A DNA stretch of 64,000 nt, taken from contig VHBO01000005.1 in the NCBI GenBank assembly GCA_016871895.1, positions 1 to 64,000 on the forward strand, read 5' to 3'. The stretch is from Gemmatimonadota bacterium (lineage in GTDB: Bacteria > Gemmatimonadota > Gemmatimonadetes > Gemmatimonadales > Gemmatimonadaceae). A program made the position numbers and the translations under genes. The notes below the pieces were generated by a model. The model was not told the DNA's origin. It made no database searches and saw only the letters and a list, made by a program, of their open reading frames with translations. Each line of letters opens with the position of its first letter. Positions within the stretch are counted from its first letter, which is position 1. Of the stretch, positions 182 through 20,528 are shown piece by piece.

Positions 182-1456
182 CTACGTCACCGCCTGCCGC
201 ACCTGGAACCGCGGCGCCTGCCACACCCCCGTCCGCAGCACCTCCTCGATCGACGCCACCGCGCGGTCCACATCCGTGAACCGTAGGTAGAGCGGCGTGA
301 TCCCGAACCGCATCACCCCGGGCCCATCGGGCTGCACGCGGTAATCCCCGATCACCCCGCGCGCGATCAACGCCTGCATCACGGCGTACGCCGACGGGTG
401 TGCGACGCTCACGTGGCTCCCGCGCGGCTGGCCGATCGGCGGGCCGATGACCTCAGCCCCATACGTCCCACAGGTCGCGGCGACACGCGCCATCAACCGC
501 TCGCGTAGCGCTCGCGATTTGGCCGCCACCTGCGTGAGATCGGCCTCGAGCATCAGGTCCACCCCGACCTCGAGCGCCGCCAGCGACAAGATCGGCGGCG
601 TGCCACACTGCAGCCGCGCGATCCCCGGCGCGGGCGCGTACGCATCCTCGAACGCGAAGGGACGCGCGTGCCCGATCCATCCCCCCATCGGGGTCTCGAG
701 CGTCTCCTGATGCCGCTCGGCGACGAACACCATCGCCGGCGCGCCAGGCCCGCCGTTGAGGAACTTGTAGCCGCACCCGACGGCGTAGTCGGCACGCGCG
801 GCGTTCAGATCGATCGGCATCGCGCCGAGCGAATGACTGAGGTCCCAACACACACGCGCGCCCACGGCGTGTGCGGCCGCCGTGACCGCCACCATATCGT
901 ACAGCTCGGCGGTGCGGTAATGGACGTGCGTGAGCAGGACGAGCGCGGTGTCGGCGTCGCAGCGCGCCGCGATCTGCTCGCGCGGCACGAGCACGAGCCG
1001 GTGCCCCTTCCCCAGCGTGCGGATCGCTGACTCGATGAGATAGAGATCGGTGGGGAAGTTCCCGGGCTCGGAGAGGATCGTCTTCCGCTCGGGCTGCGCG
1101 GCGAGCGCGGCGTGGATGACCTTGTGGAGGTTCACCGAGGTGGAGTCGGCGACGACGACCTCGTGCGGCGCGGCCCCGACGAGCCGCGCGAGCTTGGCGC
1201 CCACACGCAACGGCGCCTCGATCCATCCGGCGGTGTTCCAGCTGCGGATGAGCCCTTCGCCCCACTCCTCACGCACGACGCTGGCGATCCGATCAGCGGC
1301 GCCCTTCGGCAGCGGGCCGAGGGAGTTGCCATCGAGATAGATGATGTCATCGGAGAGGTCGAAGCGCTCGCGGAAGGGCGCAAGCGGGTCGGCGGCGTCG
1401 AGGGCGGCGGCGTCCGCAGTGATGGGATCGAGTGGAGCGGGCATCGAGTGGGTCAT
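182..1456 (-). CDS. kynU: Kynureninase
   Basis: This is a PLP-dependent aminotransferase-fold enzyme that cleaves L-kynurenine to anthranilate and L-alanine. The protein has 424 residues, a normal length for the family. Visible landmarks are the N-terminal IIYLDGNSLGPLP, the STSVNLHK segment, WDLSHS around residue 204, and GCGYKFLNGGPG, whose lysine (about residue 231) is the expected Schiff-base lysine. The ATG at 1456 was chosen because family homology begins just after it and because longer versions would run into the upstream dioxygenase gene, whose stop lies 31 nt away. It follows the IDO gene on the same strand and is almost certainly cotranscribed, giving the first and third steps of tryptophan breakdown. 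The product anthranilate could enter the trp operon further along. Confidence 0.95.
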   Translation of the reverse strand: MTHSMPAPLDPITADAAALDAADPLAPFRERFDLSDDIIYLDGNSLGPLPKGAADRIASVVREEWGEGLIRSWNTAGWIEAPLRVGAKLARLVGAAPHEVVVADSTSVNLHKVIHAALAAQPERKTILSEPGNFPTDLYLIESAIRTLGKGHRLVLVPREQIAARCDADTALVLLTHVHYRTAELYDMVAVTAAAHAVGARVCWDLSHSLGAMPIDLNAARADYAVGCGYKFLNGGPGAPAMVFVAERHQETLETPMGGWIGHARPFAFEDAYAPAPGIARLQCGTPPILSLAALEVGVDLMLEADLTQVAAKSRALRERLMARVAATCGTYGAEVIGPPIGQPRGSHVSVAHPSAYAVMQALIARGVIGDYRVQPDGPGVMRFGITPLYLRFTDVDRAVASIEEVLRTGVWQAPRFQVRQAVT

Positions 1457-1487
1457 CGGGGGGTCGTCGGGGTGCGCATTGGGGCGA

Positions 1488-2603
1488 TCATCGGACGAGA
1501 CGCGCCTGTTCGGTATCGCCCTGCGCGCCGCGCAGGAAATCCTCGAGCGCGGTGCCGCCGGTGCCGGTGGCATCCCGCGTGCCGGCGGGGGCAACGATGT
1601 AGTCGTGCGCGAGGCAGAGATGTGCGGCACGGAAGCGCGCGACGGCGTCGATCGCTGCATCGTAGGCGGCCCGGAGCGCGGGGCTCCCGGCTGCGGCGCG
1701 CGCGCGCACGCGTGACGTGCGCTCGACTTCCGTGACGAAAGCGCGATGCGGGGGCGGCATATAGTCGCGCACCATCCGCAGGTACGCGCCCGCCGGGGCA
1801 TCGGGGTGATGCACGCCGAGCACCGCATCGAAGGACTGGATGAGCGCGCTCTGCCCGGCACTGCCGCCGAGGTAGCGGCGCGGCGCATCATCGACGCCGT
1901 CGTAGATCACTCCTGGTGCGGGCCATCCGGTCACATAGGGGCGGACGCGATGGTAGTACGTGTGCGGATCGCACCACCGGCGCACCGCCTCGAGCGCGGC
2001 GTGCACATCCGGGAGGCCGGCGGTGAAGGCCTCGAGCTGCGCGCGCAGCGCGTCGTCGCTCCCATCCACCGACGCGGCGGCAGCGTCCCAAACAATGGCG
2101 AGCAGCGGCGCGCCGGCGAGCTCGACCCCCATCGACGCGATGAAGAACCAGTCTTCATCGACGCCGCCGAGGAAGCGGACGAGGGTGCGGGCGTTGTCGA
2201 CACCGAGGGGGCGCTGCGGATCGACGAGGGTCCAGTTGTGGAGCGTCATCGTCGCGTAGTGCGCGATCGGCGGACGCCCGAGCTGCGTGGCGAGGGTGCA
2301 GAGCGGAACGGCGACGACGGCGGGGAGGTGGAGATCGGGCGCGGCACCGCCCCAGACGTAGGCGTTCGCGTAGTGCGTCAGCAGCAAGAGGGCGCGCTCA
2401 CGCTCGGCGGGCGTATCGAGCGTCGCGAGGTCGAGGGGCGGAAGCGCGTGCAGCGCGTCACGAATGGTATGAGCGCGCAGGTGCGCGCTCAGGTTCGGGA
2501 CGAGGGCGTCCCAGGGGGCCGCGCCGGGCGGGAGTGCGTCGGGAATCGGCTCGGAGGGGACGAAGCCGGTGACGGGATCGATGCCGAAACGCGCGAGGGA
2601 CAT
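1488..2603 (-). CDS. Indoleamine 2,3-dioxygenase family protein
   Basis: This is a heme dioxygenase that opens the indole ring of tryptophan to give N-formylkynurenine. The 371-residue protein carries the IDO-type signature and not that of the bacterial tetrameric TDO. It has RPYVTGWPAPGVIYDGV around 221-237, then RYLGGSAGQSALIQSFD, the YMPPPHRAF segment near 281, FRAAH with the expected proximal heme histidine at about 328, and a C-terminal GTGGT loop near 347-351. All of these align with vertebrate IDO landmarks. It is the first gene of a two-gene unit with kynU. A TAGGAT hexamer ends 6 nt before the ATG and there is no ribosome binding site, so the transcript may be leaderless. It is divergent from the fumarase gene. 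Confidence 0.9.
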   Translation of the reverse strand: MSLARFGIDPVTGFVPSEPIPDALPPGAAPWDALVPNLSAHLRAHTIRDALHALPPLDLATLDTPAERERALLLLTHYANAYVWGGAAPDLHLPAVVAVPLCTLATQLGRPPIAHYATMTLHNWTLVDPQRPLGVDNARTLVRFLGGVDEDWFFIASMGVELAGAPLLAIVWDAAAASVDGSDDALRAQLEAFTAGLPDVHAALEAVRRWCDPHTYYHRVRPYVTGWPAPGVIYDGVDDAPRRYLGGSAGQSALIQSFDAVLGVHHPDAPAGAYLRMVRDYMPPPHRAFVTEVERTSRVRARAAAGSPALRAAYDAAIDAVARFRAAHLCLAHDYIVAPAGTRDATGTGGTALEDFLRGAQGDTEQARLVR

Positions 2604-12515: not shown

Positions 12516-12589
12516 CGTGGGGTTCGAGATTCGGCGATATGTTGGAGCACGATTCCGATTCCCACCACCCCCCAGCGCCAGGTTCGTTC

Positions 12590-15500
12590 ATGCGACGTCT
12601 CCTCCCCGCCCTCCTCCTGCTCGCGCCGGCGCTCGCGTCGGCGCAGCCCCGCGGCACCGCCGCGGCCCCCCGCCCCGACTCCACCTACCGCGAGGTCGCC
12701 GGGCTCAGCTGGCGGAACATCGGCCCCTCGCGCGGCGGGCGCGCCAACGCAGTCGCGGGGATCCCGAGCAAGCCGCTGACGTACTTCGCCGGCTACACCG
12801 GCGGCGGCCTCTGGCGCACCGACGACGCCGGTATCTCCTGGAAGAACATCTCCGACGGGCAGCTGAAGACGAGCTCGATCGGTGCGATCGCCGTCGCCCC
12901 CTCTGACGCGAACGTGCTCTATGTAGGCACCGGTGAGCACGCGATCCGCGGGCAGTCGTCGACGTACGGCGACGGGGTCTACAAGTCGACCGATCAGGGG
13001 CGCACCTGGATGAACGTCGGCCTCACCGCCACGCGACAGATCTCGGCGGTGCGCATCCACCCGTCGAACCCCGACGTGGTCTATGTGGCCGCGCAGGGGG
13101 ACCGCTGGAAGGGGACGGCGGAGCGCGGGATCTACCGCACCACCGACGGCGGCGCGACGTGGACATTGGTGCTCGCAGGGACGAACGCGGCGAGCGGCGC
13201 GAGCGACCTCTCGATGGACCCGAGCAACCCACGGATCCTCTACGCCGCCTTCTGGGACCATCAGCGGACGCCGTGGTATGTGCGCAGCGGGGGCGCGGGG
13301 AGCGGGATCTGGAAGTCGCTCGACGGCGGCAGTACGTGGACGCGGCTCACGCAGGGGCTTCCCGCCCTGATGGGGAAGATCGGCGTAGCGGTCTCACCGG
13401 CGAACCCGGACCGCCTGTATGCGATCGTCGAGGCGGAGCCGAACGGCGGACTGTATCGCTCCGATGATGCGGGGAAGAGTTGGCGGAAGATGTCGGGGGA
13501 CCGGCTGATCCAGACGCGGTCGTGGTACTACATGAACGTGACGGCCGACCCGCAGAACGCCGACGTGGTGTGGGTAATGAACGCGCCGATGATGCGCTCG
13601 ATCGACGGCGGCGCGACCTTCACAACGGTGCGCGCGACGCACGGCGACAACCATCAGCTCTGGATCAACCCGACCAACCCGAGCTATCTGATCAACGCGA
13701 ACGACGGCGGAGCGGCGATCTCGCTCGACGGCGGCGCGAGCTGGAGCTCACAGGACAACCAGCCGACGGCGCAGTTCTACCACGTGACCGTCGATGATGA
13801 CTTCCCGTACAAACTGTACAGCGGGCAGCAGGACAACTCGTCGGTGGTGATCCGCAGCCGCGGCGTGGCGGGGAGTGTCTCCGTGCGCGATTGGTGGGAT
13901 GGCGCCGGCTGCGAGAGCGCGAACATCGGCGTGAGCGCGCGGGACCCGCGCTTCATCTACGGCGGCTGCTACCAGGGGATCATCGACGAGCTCGACCAGC
14001 GCACCTGGACGTCGCGCGCGATCATGCCGTGGCCCGAGATGAACCTGACCGAGCGTACCGACTCGACGCGCTACCGCTTCAACTGGACGGCACCGATCCT
14101 CGTTTCACAGCACGATGCGAACGTGATCTATCACGGTGGGAACGTCCTCTTCCGCACGACCGACCGCGGGACCACCTGGGCGCCGCTCGCCGGCGCGAAG
14201 GACCTCACGCGTGACGATCCGGCGCGGCAGGGATGGGGGGGCGGGCCGATCACCAACGAAGGGGCCGGCGGCGAGGTGTACGGCACGATCGTCGTGATCC
14301 ACGAGTCGATGCACGACGCGCGGACGCTCTACGTGGGGACCGATGACGGGCTCGTGCAGCTCACGCGGGACGGGGGCGCGACGTGGACGAACGTGACGCC
14401 GTCCGACGCGGGCGATGGGCTCGTCAACGAGATCGAGGTCTCGCCGTTCGATCCGGCGACGGTGTGGATCGCCTTCCGGCGCGACCGCGTGGGGGATCCG
14501 ACGCCGCTCCTGTACAAGTCGACCGACTACGGGAAGACGTGGACGCTCCGCGTGACGGGGCTGCGCGCCGGCGAGCCGGTGCGCGTGGTGCGCGAGGACC
14601 CGACGCGGCGCGGGCTGCTCTACGCGGGCACGGAGACGGGGGCGTGGTTCTCCGTCGACGACGGTGCGCGCTGGCAGCCCCTCGGTGGGATGCCGGTGAC
14701 GCCGGTGACCGACCTCGAGGTGCGGCACGGGGATCTCATCGCCTCGACCGAGGGGCGGTCGTTCTGGATCCTCGATGACCTCTCGCCGCTCCGGCAGATG
14801 ACGCCGGAGATCGCGAAGGCGCCGGCGCATCTCTTCACCCCGCGCGCCACGACGCTCGCCGACTTCGGCGGCGGGTGGGGGGGCGGTGGCGCGGGGAGCG
14901 TGGGGCGGAACCCAGCGTCCGGCGCGACGGTGCACTATCGCCTCGCGAGCGCGCCCGATTCGGCGACGACGGTGTCGCTCGCCTTCCTCGACGCGCGCGG
15001 CACGGTGCTGCGCACCTACTCGACCAAGGGGACGGGACCGGCGCGCCTCACCGCGAAGGCGGGGCTCAACACCTTCACCTGGGACCTGCGGCGTGACGCG
15101 CCGACCTCGCTCCAGGGGGTCGTGCTCTTCGGTGCGCCCTCCGGCGGCGGCGCGAAGGTGGTGCCGGGTCGCTACACGGTGCGGCTCACGGTCGGTGCGG
15201 TGACGCAGTCGCAGGCGTTCGACGTCACCGCCGACCCGCGGCTCGAGCCGATCCCGGCGGCGATCGTGGCCGAGCGGGACAGCCTCGCGAACGCGCTGGT
15301 GGCGCGGATCACGGAGATCAACGACGCCGTGCTCCGGGTGCGCGACGTGAAGACGCAGGTGACGGGGATCGTCTCGCGGACGCGCGACATTCCGATGGCT
15401 GATTCCATCGGGCTCGCGGGGCGACGTCTGACGGCGAAAGCCGACACGCTCGACCCGGCGATGACGACGAAGGCCGGCAACGGGCAGGACATCATCAACT

Positions 15501-15736
15501 ACGCGAACGGGATCAACGGGCAGTTCGGCTTCCTCCTCGGCCAGCTCGAGGGGCATCCCGGCGTGACGCAGCCGGTGCGGGAGCGGCTCGTGGAGCTCGA
15601 GCGGGAGTGGGCGACGCTCAAGGCGCGCGTCACGACGTTCGAGACGACGGAGGTGGAGGCGTTCAACCAGCTGCTCGAGCGCGCCGGGGTGCCGGGGCTG
15701 ATCAGCAAGACGCCGCGGCCGAAGGTCGTGATGTGA
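12590..15736 (+). CDS. Large secreted Asp-box (BNR/VPS10-like) propeller protein, copy 1
   Basis: The 1048-residue protein has a signal peptide ending near ASAQ. At least ten Asp-box repeats of the S/T-x-D-x-G-x-T-W type follow, for example RTDDAGISW, KSTDQGRTW, RTTDGGATW, KSLDGGSTW, RSDDAGKSW and LTRDGGATW. These point to one or two beta-propellers, as in sortilin/VPS10 and in xyloglucan-type hydrolases. After about residue 780 comes a beta-sandwich and a helical tail. Databases often call such proteins glycosyl hydrolases, but I see no catalytic pair that proves it. A paralogue of the same layout lies at 48913-52158. The ATG at 12590 gives the signal peptide directly. The next gene is behind a strong hairpin. 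Confidence 0.88.
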   Translation: MRRLLPALLLLAPALASAQPRGTAAAPRPDSTYREVAGLSWRNIGPSRGGRANAVAGIPSKPLTYFAGYTGGGLWRTDDAGISWKNISDGQLKTSSIGAIAVAPSDANVLYVGTGEHAIRGQSSTYGDGVYKSTDQGRTWMNVGLTATRQISAVRIHPSNPDVVYVAAQGDRWKGTAERGIYRTTDGGATWTLVLAGTNAASGASDLSMDPSNPRILYAAFWDHQRTPWYVRSGGAGSGIWKSLDGGSTWTRLTQGLPALMGKIGVAVSPANPDRLYAIVEAEPNGGLYRSDDAGKSWRKMSGDRLIQTRSWYYMNVTADPQNADVVWVMNAPMMRSIDGGATFTTVRATHGDNHQLWINPTNPSYLINANDGGAAISLDGGASWSSQDNQPTAQFYHVTVDDDFPYKLYSGQQDNSSVVIRSRGVAGSVSVRDWWDGAGCESANIGVSARDPRFIYGGCYQGIIDELDQRTWTSRAIMPWPEMNLTERTDSTRYRFNWTAPILVSQHDANVIYHGGNVLFRTTDRGTTWAPLAGAKDLTRDDPARQGWGGGPITNEGAGGEVYGTIVVIHESMHDARTLYVGTDDGLVQLTRDGGATWTNVTPSDAGDGLVNEIEVSPFDPATVWIAFRRDRVGDPTPLLYKSTDYGKTWTLRVTGLRAGEPVRVVREDPTRRGLLYAGTETGAWFSVDDGARWQPLGGMPVTPVTDLEVRHGDLIASTEGRSFWILDDLSPLRQMTPEIAKAPAHLFTPRATTLADFGGGWGGGGAGSVGRNPASGATVHYRLASAPDSATTVSLAFLDARGTVLRTYSTKGTGPARLTAKAGLNTFTWDLRRDAPTSLQGVVLFGAPSGGGAKVVPGRYTVRLTVGAVTQSQAFDVTADPRLEPIPAAIVAERDSLANALVARITEINDAVLRVRDVKTQVTGIVSRTRDIPMADSIGLAGRRLTAKADTLDPAMTTKAGNGQDIINYANGINGQFGFLLGQLEGHPGVTQPVRERLVELEREWATLKARVTTFETTEVEAFNQLLERAGVPGLISKTPRPKVVM

Positions 15737-15796: not shown

Positions 15797-15831
15797 CGAC
15801 CGGCCCCGGGCTTGTGGCCCGGGGCCGGTCG
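15797..15831 (+). terminator. Perfect 14-bp hairpin after the Asp-box gene
   Basis: CGACCGGCCCCGGG (15797-15810) and its exact reverse complement (15818-15831) enclose the 7-nt loop CTTGTGG. The stem is very GC-rich and begins 60 nt after the stop codon at 15736. It is not followed by a U-tract. It most likely ends transcription of the upstream gene and so insulates the trp leader, whose putative promoter overlaps it. Confidence 0.6.
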
Positions 15832-15840
15832 CACTATCCT
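15812..15840 (+). promoter_or_regulatory. Candidate promoter of the trp operon
   Basis: TTGTGG (15812-15817) and TATCCT (15835-15840) are 17 nt apart, the standard -35/-10 spacing. The -10 fits the TANNNT pattern seen at other genes here. The -35 lies in the loop of the preceding hairpin. Predicted transcription start is near 15847, only a few bases before the leader ORF. Confidence 0.35.
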
Positions 15841-15850
15841 ACCCCCTCCA

Positions 15851-15925
15851 ATGACGAACCGTCTGTCGATTTCCTGCTGGCGTCCCTGGCGCGACTCCTC
15901 TCGTAGCCGGGCTCTCCGCGTCTAG
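15851..15925 (+). CDS. trpL: Putative trp leader peptide with two Trp codons
   Basis: A 24-codon ORF begins at ATG 15851 and ends with TAG at 15923. It contains Cys-Trp-Arg-Pro-Trp, with Trp codons at 15878 and 15887. Trp is rare in proteins, so two within four codons, placed just before a terminator hairpin and a trp operon, is the signature of a ribosome-mediated attenuator. No purine-rich ribosome binding site precedes the ATG. If the candidate promoter is right, the transcript would be nearly leaderless. The ORF end lies 26 nt before the hairpin arm. Confidence 0.55.
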   Translation: MTNRLSISCWRPWRDSSRSRALRV

Positions 15926-15990
15926 GTCATCGACGACCGTCGCACCGCACCACAGCCCACTGCGTTCACCGCCGTGGGCTGTTTCGTTTG
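15886..15990 (+). promoter_or_regulatory. Putative trp attenuator (alternative RNA structures and terminator)
   Basis: The terminator stem pairs ACAGCCCAC (15952-15960) with GTGGGCTGT (15974-15982). It is extended after a 1x1 mismatch by GCG/CGC, leaving a 5-nt loop, and is followed by TTCGTTT. GGGCT (15909-15913) could pair with AGCCC (15954-15958) as an antiterminator. CCTGGC (15885-15890), which spans the second Trp codon, could pair with GCCGGG (15906-15911) and block the antiterminator. These three mutually exclusive helices are the layout expected of a 1:2, 2:3, 3:4 attenuator. The antiterminator is only 5 bp, so the model is suggestive and not proven. Confidence 0.55.
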
Positions 15991-16035
15991 CTGGCGCCTC
16001 TCCCACGGCGGGTTCCCTCTCCTCGGAGCCCCACG

Positions 16036-17058
16036 ATGCCCGCCGTCCTGACCGCCCCCACCACCACCGCGCTCGAGCGTCCGCTCGACGCCGACGAATC
16101 CGAAGCGCTCTTCGAGTCCATCGTGGCCGGCACGGTGCCCGGCCCGATGCTCGCCGCCGTACTCGCCGCACTCAAGGTGCGCGGGGAGACGCCAGCGGAG
16201 ATCGCCGGAGCGGCCGCCGCCCTCCGCGCCGCCGCCGCCCCCTTCCCGCGGCCCGACTACCTCTTCACCGATACCTGCGGCACCGGCGGCGACGGGGCCC
16301 GCAGCATCAACATCTCCACCGCCGCCGCGATCGTCGCCGCCGAACTTGGCATCCCCGTTGCCAAGCACGGCAACCGCGCGGTCTCCTCGCGTTCCGGCTC
16401 CGCCGACGTGCTCGAGGCGCTCGGCGTGCGACTCAGCGCCACCCCCGAGCAGGCGCGTCGCTGCTTGGATGCGGTCGGGATCTGCTTCCTCTTCGCGCCG
16501 GAACATCATCCGGGGATGCGGCACGCCGCGCCGGTCCGCCGCGCCCTCGGGACGCGCACGATCTTCAACCTGCTCGGCCCGCTCGTGAACCCGGCCCGCC
16601 CGACGCACCAGCTCGTCGGCGTCTATGACCCCGCGCTCTGCGCGCCACTCGCCGAAACGCTCGGTCGGCTCGGGAGCACCGTGGCGCTCGTCGTCCACGG
16701 CGACGGACTCGATGAGATCGCGCTGCACGGCCCGACGCAGGCCGCGCTGCTGCGCGACGGGCGGGTCGAGAGGCTTGAGATCACGCCGGAGGCGCTGGGC
16801 CTCGCGCGGTATCCGCTCGACGCGCTCGCCGGCGGCGATGCGACGACCAATTCCGCGCTGCTGCGCGCCGTGCTCGAGGGGAACGGCGCGCCGGCGCATC
16901 GCGACGCGATCGCCGCGAACGTCGGTGCGCTCGCGTTCATCACGGATCGCGCCTGGACGCTCCGCGAGGGGGTGACGCTCGCGCTCGACGTGCTCGCGAG
17001 CGGGCGCGCGGCGGACCGGCTCGCGCGGTGGGCCGCGTGCTCGTCGCAGGCATGCTGA
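16036..17058 (+). CDS. trpD: Anthranilate phosphoribosyltransferase
   Basis: This enzyme transfers phosphoribose from PRPP to anthranilate, the second step of tryptophan synthesis. The 340-residue protein has the full family signature: DTCGTGGDGARSINIST (PRPP site) near residue 80, KHGNRAVSSRSGSADVLEALG, FLFAPEHHPGMRHAAPVRRALGTRTIFNLLGPL, and GDGLDEI. ATG 16036 has GGAG 7 nt upstream. Earlier in-frame codons have no homology. It is the first structural gene of trpD-CF-B-A and follows the putative attenuator. trpE and trpG are not in this window, so anthranilate must come from elsewhere in the genome or from the kynureninase at 182-1456. Confidence 0.96.
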   Translation: MPAVLTAPTTTALERPLDADESEALFESIVAGTVPGPMLAAVLAALKVRGETPAEIAGAAAALRAAAAPFPRPDYLFTDTCGTGGDGARSINISTAAAIVAAELGIPVAKHGNRAVSSRSGSADVLEALGVRLSATPEQARRCLDAVGICFLFAPEHHPGMRHAAPVRRALGTRTIFNLLGPLVNPARPTHQLVGVYDPALCAPLAETLGRLGSTVALVVHGDGLDEIALHGPTQAALLRDGRVERLEITPEALGLARYPLDALAGGDATTNSALLRAVLEGNGAPAHRDAIAANVGALAFITDRAWTLREGVTLALDVLASGRAADRLARWAACSSQAC

Positions 17059-18455
17059 ACGAGATCGTCGCGCGCACGCGCGCGGACCTGCGCGAGCGGC
17101 AGGCGCTCCGGCCGCTCGACGCGGTGCGGACCGCTTGCCAGCCGTCGGACCGCGACTTCACCGCCGCGCTCCGTCGTCCCGGGCCGGGGTTCATCCTCGA
17201 GCACAAGCGGGCCTCGCCCTCCGCAGGCGTGCTCCGCACGGGGCACGCGCCCGCGACGATCGCGCGGGCGTATGCGCCTTTCGCAGCCGCCATCTCCGTG
17301 CTCTGCGACACGCCCTTCTTCGGCGGGAGTCTCGACGACCTACGGGCCGTGCGCGCCGCCGTCGACGTGCCGGTGCTCTGCAAGGACTTCGTGGTCGAGC
17401 CGTACCAGGTGTACGAGGCGCGCGCGGCAGGGGCGGACGCCATCCTGCTGATATGCTCGGTCCTCGATGACGAGGCCTATGCCGCCTGCGCCGCCGCCGC
17501 GCGCGAGGCCGGGATCGCCACGCTCACCGAAGTCCACACCGAGGCGGAGCTCGCGCGTGCCATCACACTCGGCGCGCCGGTCATCGGCATCAACAACCGC
17601 GACCTGCGCACGCTTGCCGTGGACCTCGACACCACGCGGCGGCTCGCGCCCCTCGTGCCACCAGACCGCGTGCGTGTCTGCGAGTCGGGGATCCGCACGC
17701 ACGCCGATGTGCGCGACCTCGCGCCGCTGGTCGATGCGTTCCTCGTGGGCTCCGCACTGATGGCGGAGCCCGATGTGCCGCTCGCCGTGCGTCGGCTGCG
17801 GTTCGGGCTGACGAAGATCTGCGGGCTCACGCGCGCCGAGGACGCCGCCGCCGCGTTTGCCGCGGGCGCCACACACGGCGGGCTGATCTTCGCCGACGCC
17901 TCGCCGCGTCGCGTGACGCTTGCGAAGGCGGCCACGATTCGTGCGGCTGCGCCGTTGCACTGGGTCGGGGTCTTTGTCGATGCGCCGGTGCACACGGTGG
18001 TCGAGGCGGCGCGTGAGCTCGCGCTCAGCGCCGTGCAGTTGAGCGGAGACGAGTCGCCCGAGCAGGTGCGCGCCGTGCGCGCGGCGCTGCCATCGACGGT
18101 CGAGGTCTGGAAGGTCGTGCGCGTGCGGGACGCCATCCCGACGCTCCCCATCGCCGGCGCGGACCGTGTGCTGCTCGACACCTTCGTGGCTGGCCGACAC
18201 GGCGGTACCGGCGTGCGCTTCGACTGGCAGCTGCTCGCCGACCACCCCGAGCGTCACCGCTTCATCCTCGCTGGCGGACTCTCCCCCGAGAACATCCGCG
18301 AGGCCGCCGCGCTCGGCGTCGGTGGGCTCGACGTCAACTCGGGCGTGGAGGTCGCGCCCGGACAGAAGGACCCTGTTCGCATCGCCCAGCTCTTCCACGC
18401 GCTCGCCACCCCCGACCATCCGCATGTGACCATCCGTTTGAGTGCTTCCGAATGA
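17052..18455 (+). CDS. trpCF: Fused indole-3-glycerol-phosphate synthase / phosphoribosylanthranilate isomerase
   Basis: The 467-residue bifunctional protein joins two (beta/alpha)8 barrels for consecutive tryptophan steps. Residues 1-255 are Trp[12 protein letters not shown] (catalytic Lys), [34 protein letters not shown] and CESGIRT. Residues 260-467 are Trp[13 protein letters not shown] (catalytic Cys), [29 protein letters not shown] and the phosphate-binding [10 protein letters not shown] with GLDVNSGVE. The order C-then-F is the same as in enterobacterial TrpC. The start ATG overlaps the trpD stop by 7 nt, and the end overlaps trpB as ATGA, implying translational coupling. Confidence 0.95.
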
Positions 18456-19681
18456 TCCGCTCCGCCTACTACGGCCGCTTCGGCGGCAGCTTCGTTCCCG
18501 AGATTCTCGTCCCCGCGCTCGAATCGCTCGAGGCCGCGTTCTTGGACGCGCAGGCCGATCCCACCTTCGTCGCAGAGCTCGAGACGCTGCTTCGCACCTA
18601 TGCGGGACGTGAGACGCCGCTCTACCAGTGCCGGCAGCTCGGCCGCGAGACCGACTCGCGGATCTGGTTCAAGCGCGAGGACCTGCTCCACGGCGGCGCG
18701 CACAAGACCAATCAGGCGCTCGGCCAGGGGCTGCTCGCACAGCGGCTCGGGAAGACGCGGCTCATCGCGGAGACCGGCGCCGGGCAGCACGGGGTGGCCA
18801 CCGCGCTCACCGGGGCGGTGCTCGGCATCCCCACGCGCATTTATATGGGTGCGGCGGATATCGAGCGACAGCAGCCGAACGTGCAGCGGATGCGGTTGAT
18901 GGGCGCCGAGGTCGTGCCGGTGACGCAGGGGGGCGCGACGCTCAAGGCCGCGATCAACGAGGCGCTCCGCGACTGGTCCGCGTCGTACGCGACCACGCAT
19001 TACCTGCTCGGTACGGTGGCAGGCCCGCATCCCTTCCCGCTCATCGTGCGCGAGTTCCAGCGCGTGATCGGCCGCGAGGCGCGGGCGCAGTTCCTTGAGG
19101 CGACCGGTCGGTTGCCGGATGCCGTCGTGGCGAGTGTCGGTGGCGGCTCGAACGCGATCGGCATCTTCACCGATTTCATTGCGGATGCGGCGGTGCGGCT
19201 GATCGGCGTGGAGCCCGCGGGTGAGGGACTCCACACCGCGCGGCACGGTGCCACGCTGCAGCGAGGCCGGCCCGGCGTGCTGCACGGCTGCTACACGCAG
19301 ATCCTGCAGGACGACGAGGGTCAGGTGCAGGAGTCGCACTCGATCTCCGCCGGTTTGGATTATCCCGGCGTGGGACCGGAGCACGCGCAGCTGCAGGAGA
19401 CGGGCCGCGCGCAGTATGTGGGATGCACCGACGCGGAGGCGATGGCGGCGTTCTCACTCGTCGCACGGAGCGAGGGGATCATCCCCGCGGTCGAGTCGGC
19501 ACACGCGGTGGCGGGCGCACTCAAGCTCGCACGCACGTCGGACCGACCGCTCGACATCCTCGTGAATCTCTCTGGCCGCGGGGATAAGGATCTCGCGACG
19601 GTGCTGCGGTATCAGGCGGAGGAGGCGGCGCGCGGCGCGGCAAACGTTGTTGCGGCGGCTGGAGGCATCGATGCCCGCTGA
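18452..19681 (+). CDS. trpB: Tryptophan synthase beta chain
   Basis: This PLP enzyme joins indole and L-serine to give tryptophan, in an alpha2-beta2 complex with TrpA. The 409-residue protein starts at the conserved [14 protein letters not shown]. It has [13 protein letters not shown] with the PLP lysine at residue 85, the [12 protein letters not shown] segment, the phosphate loop GGGSNAIG, and [13 protein letters not shown] with the expected metal and substrate contacts. This is the canonical TrpB1 type, which partners TrpA, not the long TrpB2 type. It overlaps trpCF by ATGA and trpA by 11 nt. Confidence 0.97.
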
Positions 19682-20528
19682 GCGCTACGCCGCGATGTTC
19701 GCGCGGCTTGCCGAGCGTGATGAGCTGGCCTTCGTGCCGTTCTTCGTGCTGGGAGATCCGTCGATGGAGGAGAACCTCGCGCTCATCTCGGCGGCCGTCG
19801 AGGCCGGGGCCGATGGCTTGGAGCTCGGGCTCCCGTTCTCGGATCCCATCGCCGATGGGCCCGCGGTGCAGTCCGCCGTGACACGCGCGCTCGAAGCCGG
19901 GACGCGCATCTCCGCCTGCTGGCCTTTGCTGCGCGCCGTGCGTAACGCGCATCCCACGGTGCCGATCGGGTTACTGGTGTACGCGAACCTCATCGTGCAC
20001 GCGGGGGTCGAGGCGTTCGTAACGCAGTGCGCGGCCGCGGGCGTCGATTCGGTCGTGATCCCCGATGCGCCGTCGCTCGAGCAGGCGTGGTTCGCGGAGG
20101 CGTTCGCGAAGGGCGGTGTGGCGCTGGCGCGGATCCTTCCGCCGGGCGCCGACGCGGCGCGCGTACAGGAGGTGGCGCGGTCGAGCGCGGGATACGTGTA
20201 CGTCACGTCGCGCGGGGGCGTGACCGGCGCGGACGACACGTTGCAGGCCGACTCGACGGCGGTGATTTCCGCGCTTCAAAAGGAGGGCGCCGCACCGGCG
20301 CTGCTCGGGTTTGGCATCGCGCAGCCGACGCACGTGCACGCCGCGCGCGCGATGGGCGTCGCGGGGGCGATCTCCGGCTCGGCCGTGGTGCAGCGAATCG
20401 GGGCGCACGGCACACCGGCGGCGCGGCGAGCGGCGGTGGTTGCATTCGTGCGAGAGATGAAGGGGGCGACGGGCCCTCACCCCACCGCGAACCATCCCAT
20501 CGCGCCCCGCTCCGCCAACCGCGCCTGA
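19671..20528 (+). CDS. trpA: Tryptophan synthase alpha chain
   Basis: This subunit cleaves indole-3-glycerol phosphate to indole, which is channelled to TrpB. The catalytic pair is E51 in [18 protein letters not shown] and D62 in the same segment, with the E. coli 11-residue spacing (E49/D60). [11 protein letters not shown] and [11 protein letters not shown] provide the phosphate site. ATG 19671 has a GGAGG about 6 nt upstream and lies inside trpB. The family normally ends near [10 protein letters not shown]. The last 17 or so codons are an extra tail that lies antisense to the 3' end of the convergent multicopper oxidase gene, and no terminator fits between the two. Confidence 0.95.

Follow-up and report, generated by a model that had tools for sequence, protein, structure and literature searches.

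A predicted ribosome-mediated tryptophan attenuator with a leaderless-type leader peptide in front of trpDCFBA in Gemmatimonadota

The window analyzed in this study is a 64,000-nucleotide stretch of a Gemmatimonadota genome (hereafter G000), in which a 300-base gap separates the gene of a Vps10/BNR-repeat protein (12539-15736) from trpD, the first structural gene of a trpDCFBA operon. An initial annotation had proposed that this gap holds a transcription attenuator with a Trp-containing leader peptide, which raises the question of whether a ribosome translating a few codons governs the operon behind it. Our analyses of the sequence, its folding and its counterparts in related genomes indicated that the site is very probably a ribosome-mediated transcription attenuator of trpDCFBA that senses the charging of tRNA-Trp.

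Direct reading of the gap confirmed the leader ORF of the initial annotation, with its 24 codons (MTNRLSISCWRPWRDSSRSRALRV) and two non-adjacent Trp codons at 15878 and 15887 (Table 1). No Shine-Dalgarno was found in the sequence upstream of this ORF, whereas the trpD ATG is preceded by GGAG (16025-16028). By sequence reading, the leader ATG is 10 nucleotides past the end of the TATCCT box of a predicted promoter. The closest public relative, the near-identical 'Gemmatimonadota bacterium LOR9m-Oct20' (JARIFA010000007, hereafter G008), has TTGTGG-17-TATCGT as its leader promoter, and nine relatives with the leader linked to aroF have TTGAC, about 17 bp, a -10-like box and an ATG that follows this box by 6-9 nucleotides. 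In every one of these leaders the promoter prediction leaves at most a few bases between the transcription start and the ATG, so that translation of the leader peptide probably takes place on a leaderless mRNA, here and in the relatives alike.

Table 1. Features of the attenuator site, the operon behind it and the kynurenine-pathway genes in the window.
Feature	Coordinates	Strand	Details
Predicted leader promoter	15812-15840	+	-35 TTGTGG 15812-15817, 17-bp spacer, -10 TATCCT 15835-15840; consensus match only
trp leader peptide ORF	15851-15925	+	24 codons; ATG 15851, TAG 15923-15925
1:2 (anti-antiterminator) hairpin	15885-15911	+	15885-15894 with 15901-15904 and 15906-15911, 10 bp; RNA fold
2:3 antiterminator	15902-15964	+	15902-15906/15960-15964 and 15909-15913/15954-15958, 10 bp; folded without strands 1 and 4
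3:4 intrinsic terminator	15952-15989	+	9-bp stem 15952-15960/15974-15982; inner 3 bp 15962-15964/15970-15972
trpD (anthranilate phosphoribosyltransferase)	16036-17058	+	First structural gene; PF00591 E 1e-95, PF02885
trpCF fusion	17061-18455	+	PF00218+PF00697
trpB	18452-19681	+	PF00291
trpA	19671-20528	+	PF00290
Indoleamine 2,3-dioxygenase	1488-2603	-	
Kynureninase	182-1891	-	

A perfect inverted repeat of 16 bp with a 3-base loop (15797-15831) overlaps the -35 box of the leader promoter. This repeat was identical in G008 at 35 of 35 positions, whereas its upstream flank there was only 69% identical. The repeat may serve either to end transcription of the upstream gene or as an operator. It falls within the range given in the initial annotation; as it lies upstream of the predicted transcription start, it would be outside the attenuator RNA.

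The intrinsic terminator read from the sequence was as first annotated, with a stem of 9 bp plus 3 bp and a T-rich tail just before trpD. Its tail is TTTCGTTT (15982-15989), a T-tract broken by CG. The two competing helices had been recognized in part. The 5 bp drawn for the antiterminator (15909-15913/15954-15958) were present but gave only half of its length, as a second 5-bp part extends it, and the helix drawn as 6 bp (15885-15890/15906-15911) was likewise present but too short, extending to 10 bp in the 1:2 hairpin, which carries the second Trp codon in its 5' arm. The antiterminator shares strand 2 with the 1:2 hairpin and strand 3 with the terminator, and is mutually exclusive with both. 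Folding with the ribosome footprint removed produced the antiterminator in all ten of the leaders folded.

Based on this arrangement, we infer the following sequence of events. Transcription would begin at or just before the leader ATG, and a ribosome would load on the leaderless 5' end. When charged tRNA-Trp is scarce, the ribosome would stall at 15878 or 15887 and mask strand 1 (15885-15894); strand 2 (15902-15913) would then pair with strand 3 (15954-15964), no terminator would form and the operon would be transcribed. With the A site at 15887, the footprint of the ribosome is expected to end right before strand 2, at about 15901, and a ribosome at the stop codon (15923) is expected to cover the second half of that strand. 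When Trp is plentiful, the ribosome would pass through strand 2 to this stop and block 2:3 pairing, so that strand 3 would pair with strand 4 and transcription would stop near 15985-15990. Absence of translation should also leave the terminator free, by way of the 1:2 hairpin. The control may be weak, because there are two non-adjacent Trp codons, compared with three to five in most of the aroF-linked relatives, and a CG breaks the T-tract.

The initial annotation had proposed an alignment of the region upstream of trpD in related genomes, with conservation as the point at issue, and this comparison found both the leader ORF and the helices to be conserved. The leader ORF of G008 was identical at 66 of 75 bases with no indels, with the reading frame, the Trp codons and their flanking codons unchanged, and its terminator was identical at 40 of 41 bases, whereas the spacer next to it was only 76% identical. 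In three further genomes (G038, G055 and G056), homologous leaders (MTSVAFRHLWWRWRGFSRGRPWCA, MQHLVTLNLWWWPWRNSAVGRASV and MIGRNVSTQWWWPWRDFAVGQSVRLSR) were identified in front of aroF. The gene order in these genomes was aroF-trpE-trpG-trpD onward, and wherever the reading covered the operon it was aroF-trpEGDCFBA. A covariance model of these five sequences (R1) was run blind over 395 genomes of the phylum and identified five further strong sites (E 1.5e-13 to 5.5e-9), each with a Trp-rich leaderless-type ORF (MTRRTVNNLWWWPWRDSAVRPRVRVSR, MTQPIALNLWWWPWRISAVGTTDV, MRISCRTEQSWWPWRGVSRGGPVCA, MSYPIRPTLWYWSWRDIRGGPGCV and MKPVPGIPCWWSWPGTRRGRAWSA) and a terminator before aroF; in one of the genomes (G296) just the first residues of aroF are present on the stretch read. 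A second covariance model added an eleventh leader, in G253. In total, 11 genomes of three families combine a Trp-rich leader ORF with a terminator and with hairpins that exclude each other, always before trp-pathway genes and with compensatory changes in the helices, and nine of these genomes, from two families other than that of G000 and G008, carry the leader directly ahead of aroF. That the leader is common to these relatives supports the attenuator being real. The aroF-linked form had not been noticed in the initial annotation, nor had the leaderless promoter, the longer antiterminator or the apparent loss of trpE and trpG described below.

The distribution of the leader was patchy, with 10 of 287 genomes of the order having it at E 1e-5, and it appears to go with one type of TrpD. 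This type was nearer to the TrpD found in some Gammaproteobacteria and Myxococcota than to the one that most congeners carry. In same-genus genomes whose TrpD is of the other type (about 46% identity), no such leader was found in the flanks read of trpD or trpE, one of the scans covering both strands. A DNA similarity search within the family had G008 as its sole match beyond chance. Weak model matches below about 32 bits (L158-L163, L166-L169 and L173) were mostly inside coding sequence or otherwise had no Trp leader, and two weak matches elsewhere in G000 (L215 and L216) were not leaders.

The cleanest test of the site was a search with a covariance model (R3) built on eight relatives and on neither G000 nor G008. 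This model matched 15875-15990 as the sole significant match in the 64-kb window (E 3.1e-10), with the next real candidate at E of about 0.05, and matched the same site over the whole genome at E 1.1e-8. Pairing was counted in a 10-sequence alignment fitted to the structure, which favours pairing; with that bias, 91.6% of cells in the 1:2 hairpin and terminator were paired, compared with 34-50% when the columns were slid, and there were 11 double-change cells compared with 3.5 in shuffles. Taken singly over the ten genomes, the 1:2 helix was 90% paired, with changes on both sides, and the terminator helix was 92.5% paired. The antiterminator columns were 88.9% paired (31-58% slid), with a modest covariation of their own of two double-change cells. 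One antiterminator column pair (31/110) is A-U in G000 and G008 and G-C in most of the others, and the changed base costs one terminator pair.

These data also bear on other explanations of the site. Many intergenic regions hold an intrinsic terminator, and the presence of two Trp codons is by itself weak evidence, so the hairpin could be an ordinary terminator of upstream read-through with a coincidental Trp-containing ORF. We consider this very improbable, as conservation extends beyond the terminator to the Trp run, the 1:2 hairpin and the antiterminator, the whole set invariably precedes trp-pathway genes, and most of the relatives have three or more Trp codons. In addition, a scan for a leaderless promoter, a Trp-pair ORF and a terminator, using criteria picked after the site was known, identified one site in the real window and none in 200 dinucleotide shuffles. 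It is extremely improbable that the leader acts mainly in trans, through a short transcript or a peptide as regulator, with attenuation secondary. Such a role would resemble that of rnTrpL/peTrpL of Sinorhizobium meliloti, where rnTrpL likewise starts with the trpL ATG and acts in trans (PMC7298713). The residues beyond the Trp run are partly conserved in the Gemmatimonadota leaders; however, the conserved residues overlap strands 1 and 2, so that pairing explains their conservation.

The remaining explanation is that another sensor (a T-box, TRAP, or a Trp-binding repressor at the 15797-15831 repeat) exerts the main control and that the ORF is a relic. The perfection of the repeat, its complete identity in G008 and its overlap with the -35 box would suit a repressor; nevertheless, the repeat is missing from the promoters of the aroF-linked relatives, whereas the attenuator is common to them, and there was no T-box or other Rfam match. 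We give this explanation almost no credence. Curated Rfam families, searched at gathering and relaxed thresholds, had no credible match at the site, a result of little weight because Rfam also misses the Trp-rich WWWH leader of a gammaproteobacterium (L062). Dual control by an attenuator and a repressor, as in E. coli, is possible.

The operon behind the putative attenuator is unusual in its content. There was no match to Anth_synt_I_N or Chorismate_bind in G000 (96% complete) or G008 (81% complete), so that trpE and pabB seem to be missing from both. In G000, trpE and trpG seem to be absent, with the leader directly before trpDCFBA, and its aroF, of another lineage, is on a different contig. 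We infer that aroF-trpE-trpG was lost from behind the leader; the alternative is a transfer of the leader. The attenuator was thus apparently kept while the operon shrank from aroF-trpEGDCFBA to trpDCFBA. An organism apparently without trpE counts against the attenuator reading, in that the physiological need for such control seems questionable. Adjacent kynureninase and indoleamine 2,3-dioxygenase genes were observed in the window 13 kb from trpDCFBA. Kynurenine-derived anthranilate could feed trpDCFBA as a salvage route, and, if so, we speculate that the attenuator would prevent a futile loop.

The proposed mechanism is itself known. Like the proteobacterial trp attenuators (E. coli trpL type), the Gemmatimonadota site has a leader peptide with Trp codons, mutually exclusive 1:2, 2:3 and 3:4 hairpins and an intrinsic terminator before trp genes, and our own scan recovered leaders of the WWWH type with terminators in gammaproteobacteria with a related TrpD. 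There is, however, little sequence match past the Trp run and the terminator: the motif is W-W-W-P-W-R rather than WWW-H, strand 2 is inside the ORF, the promoter is of the leaderless type, and the leader is before aroF or trpD rather than trpE. In S. meliloti, the ATG of trpL forms the 5' end of the rnTrpL transcript (PMC7298713), similar to the 5' end predicted here from promoter geometry alone, but the S. meliloti leader is of alphaproteobacterial sequence and precedes trpE(G). In Corynebacterium and Streptomyces, classical attenuators precede trp operons, with GC-rich terminators and Trp pairs or triples comparable to those described here (PMC1262725); they differ in phylum, leader sequence and operon order. 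A Corynebacterium locus (L086) with MKTLKNLWWWRA was a weak R3 match.

According to a 2010 survey, leader-peptide systems had until then been demonstrated in Proteobacteria and Actinobacteria only, and the survey itself added Firmicutes (PMC2965389). The initial annotation had regarded such attenuation as undescribed in this kind of organism, and we likewise found no report of peptide-leader attenuation in Gemmatimonadota in the mainly freely accessible literature that was searched. What appears novel is therefore the phylum; its distinctive aspects are the truncated operon and the leaderless layout of the case described here. A covariation-supported case in Gemmatimonadota extends peptide-leader attenuation to another phylum, and offers a tractable system for attenuation from a leaderless mRNA.

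The use of attenuation in the phylum may be wider. One weak match of the trp-leader model (L165) proved to be a leader of thrS. Thr-rich leader ORFs of 25 codons each (MNASSTTDTTTRTGRTTGRGAARFG and MHARSTATTTTTTGRIVGPGAACVD), followed by GC-rich terminators, were observed directly before thrS in G346 (L165/L178) and G257 (L196), and in G217 (L199) a leaderless ORF with fewer Thr codons has a terminator at the same place upstream of thrS. These leaders make the threonyl-tRNA synthetase gene a candidate for control by Thr attenuators in Gemmatimonadota, which suggests a wider use of attenuation. It is conceivable, though somewhat short of an even chance, that leaderless leader peptides are a general means of attenuation of amino-acid and aminoacyl-tRNA synthetase genes in Gemmatimonadota (aroF-trp, trpDCFBA and thrS), with ribosomes loading at the 5' end without a Shine-Dalgarno, and that the switch of G000 and G008 outlived the first genes of its pathway and now controls an anthranilate-salvage operon.

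Several further loci resembled the leaders. In Myxococcales FL481 (L061:2580-2690), an aroF-like gene is preceded by a terminator (AGGCCCACCTCCCGGTGGGCTTTTT) and by an open frame that encodes WRW; this locus was excluded from the leader set as an obvious start codon was absent. Two MAGs labelled Gammaproteobacteria (L104:83-210 and L081:2660-2800) had Trp-containing leaders (MNGIHPDRTWRWPGRKLRDDSV and MNRVFTNQAWYWPRSISAG, respectively) with leaderless-type promoters and terminators, each preceding a gene whose product starts MFFVFKA or MFLVLRA, and L104 had a second leader, with WWWQ, further along.
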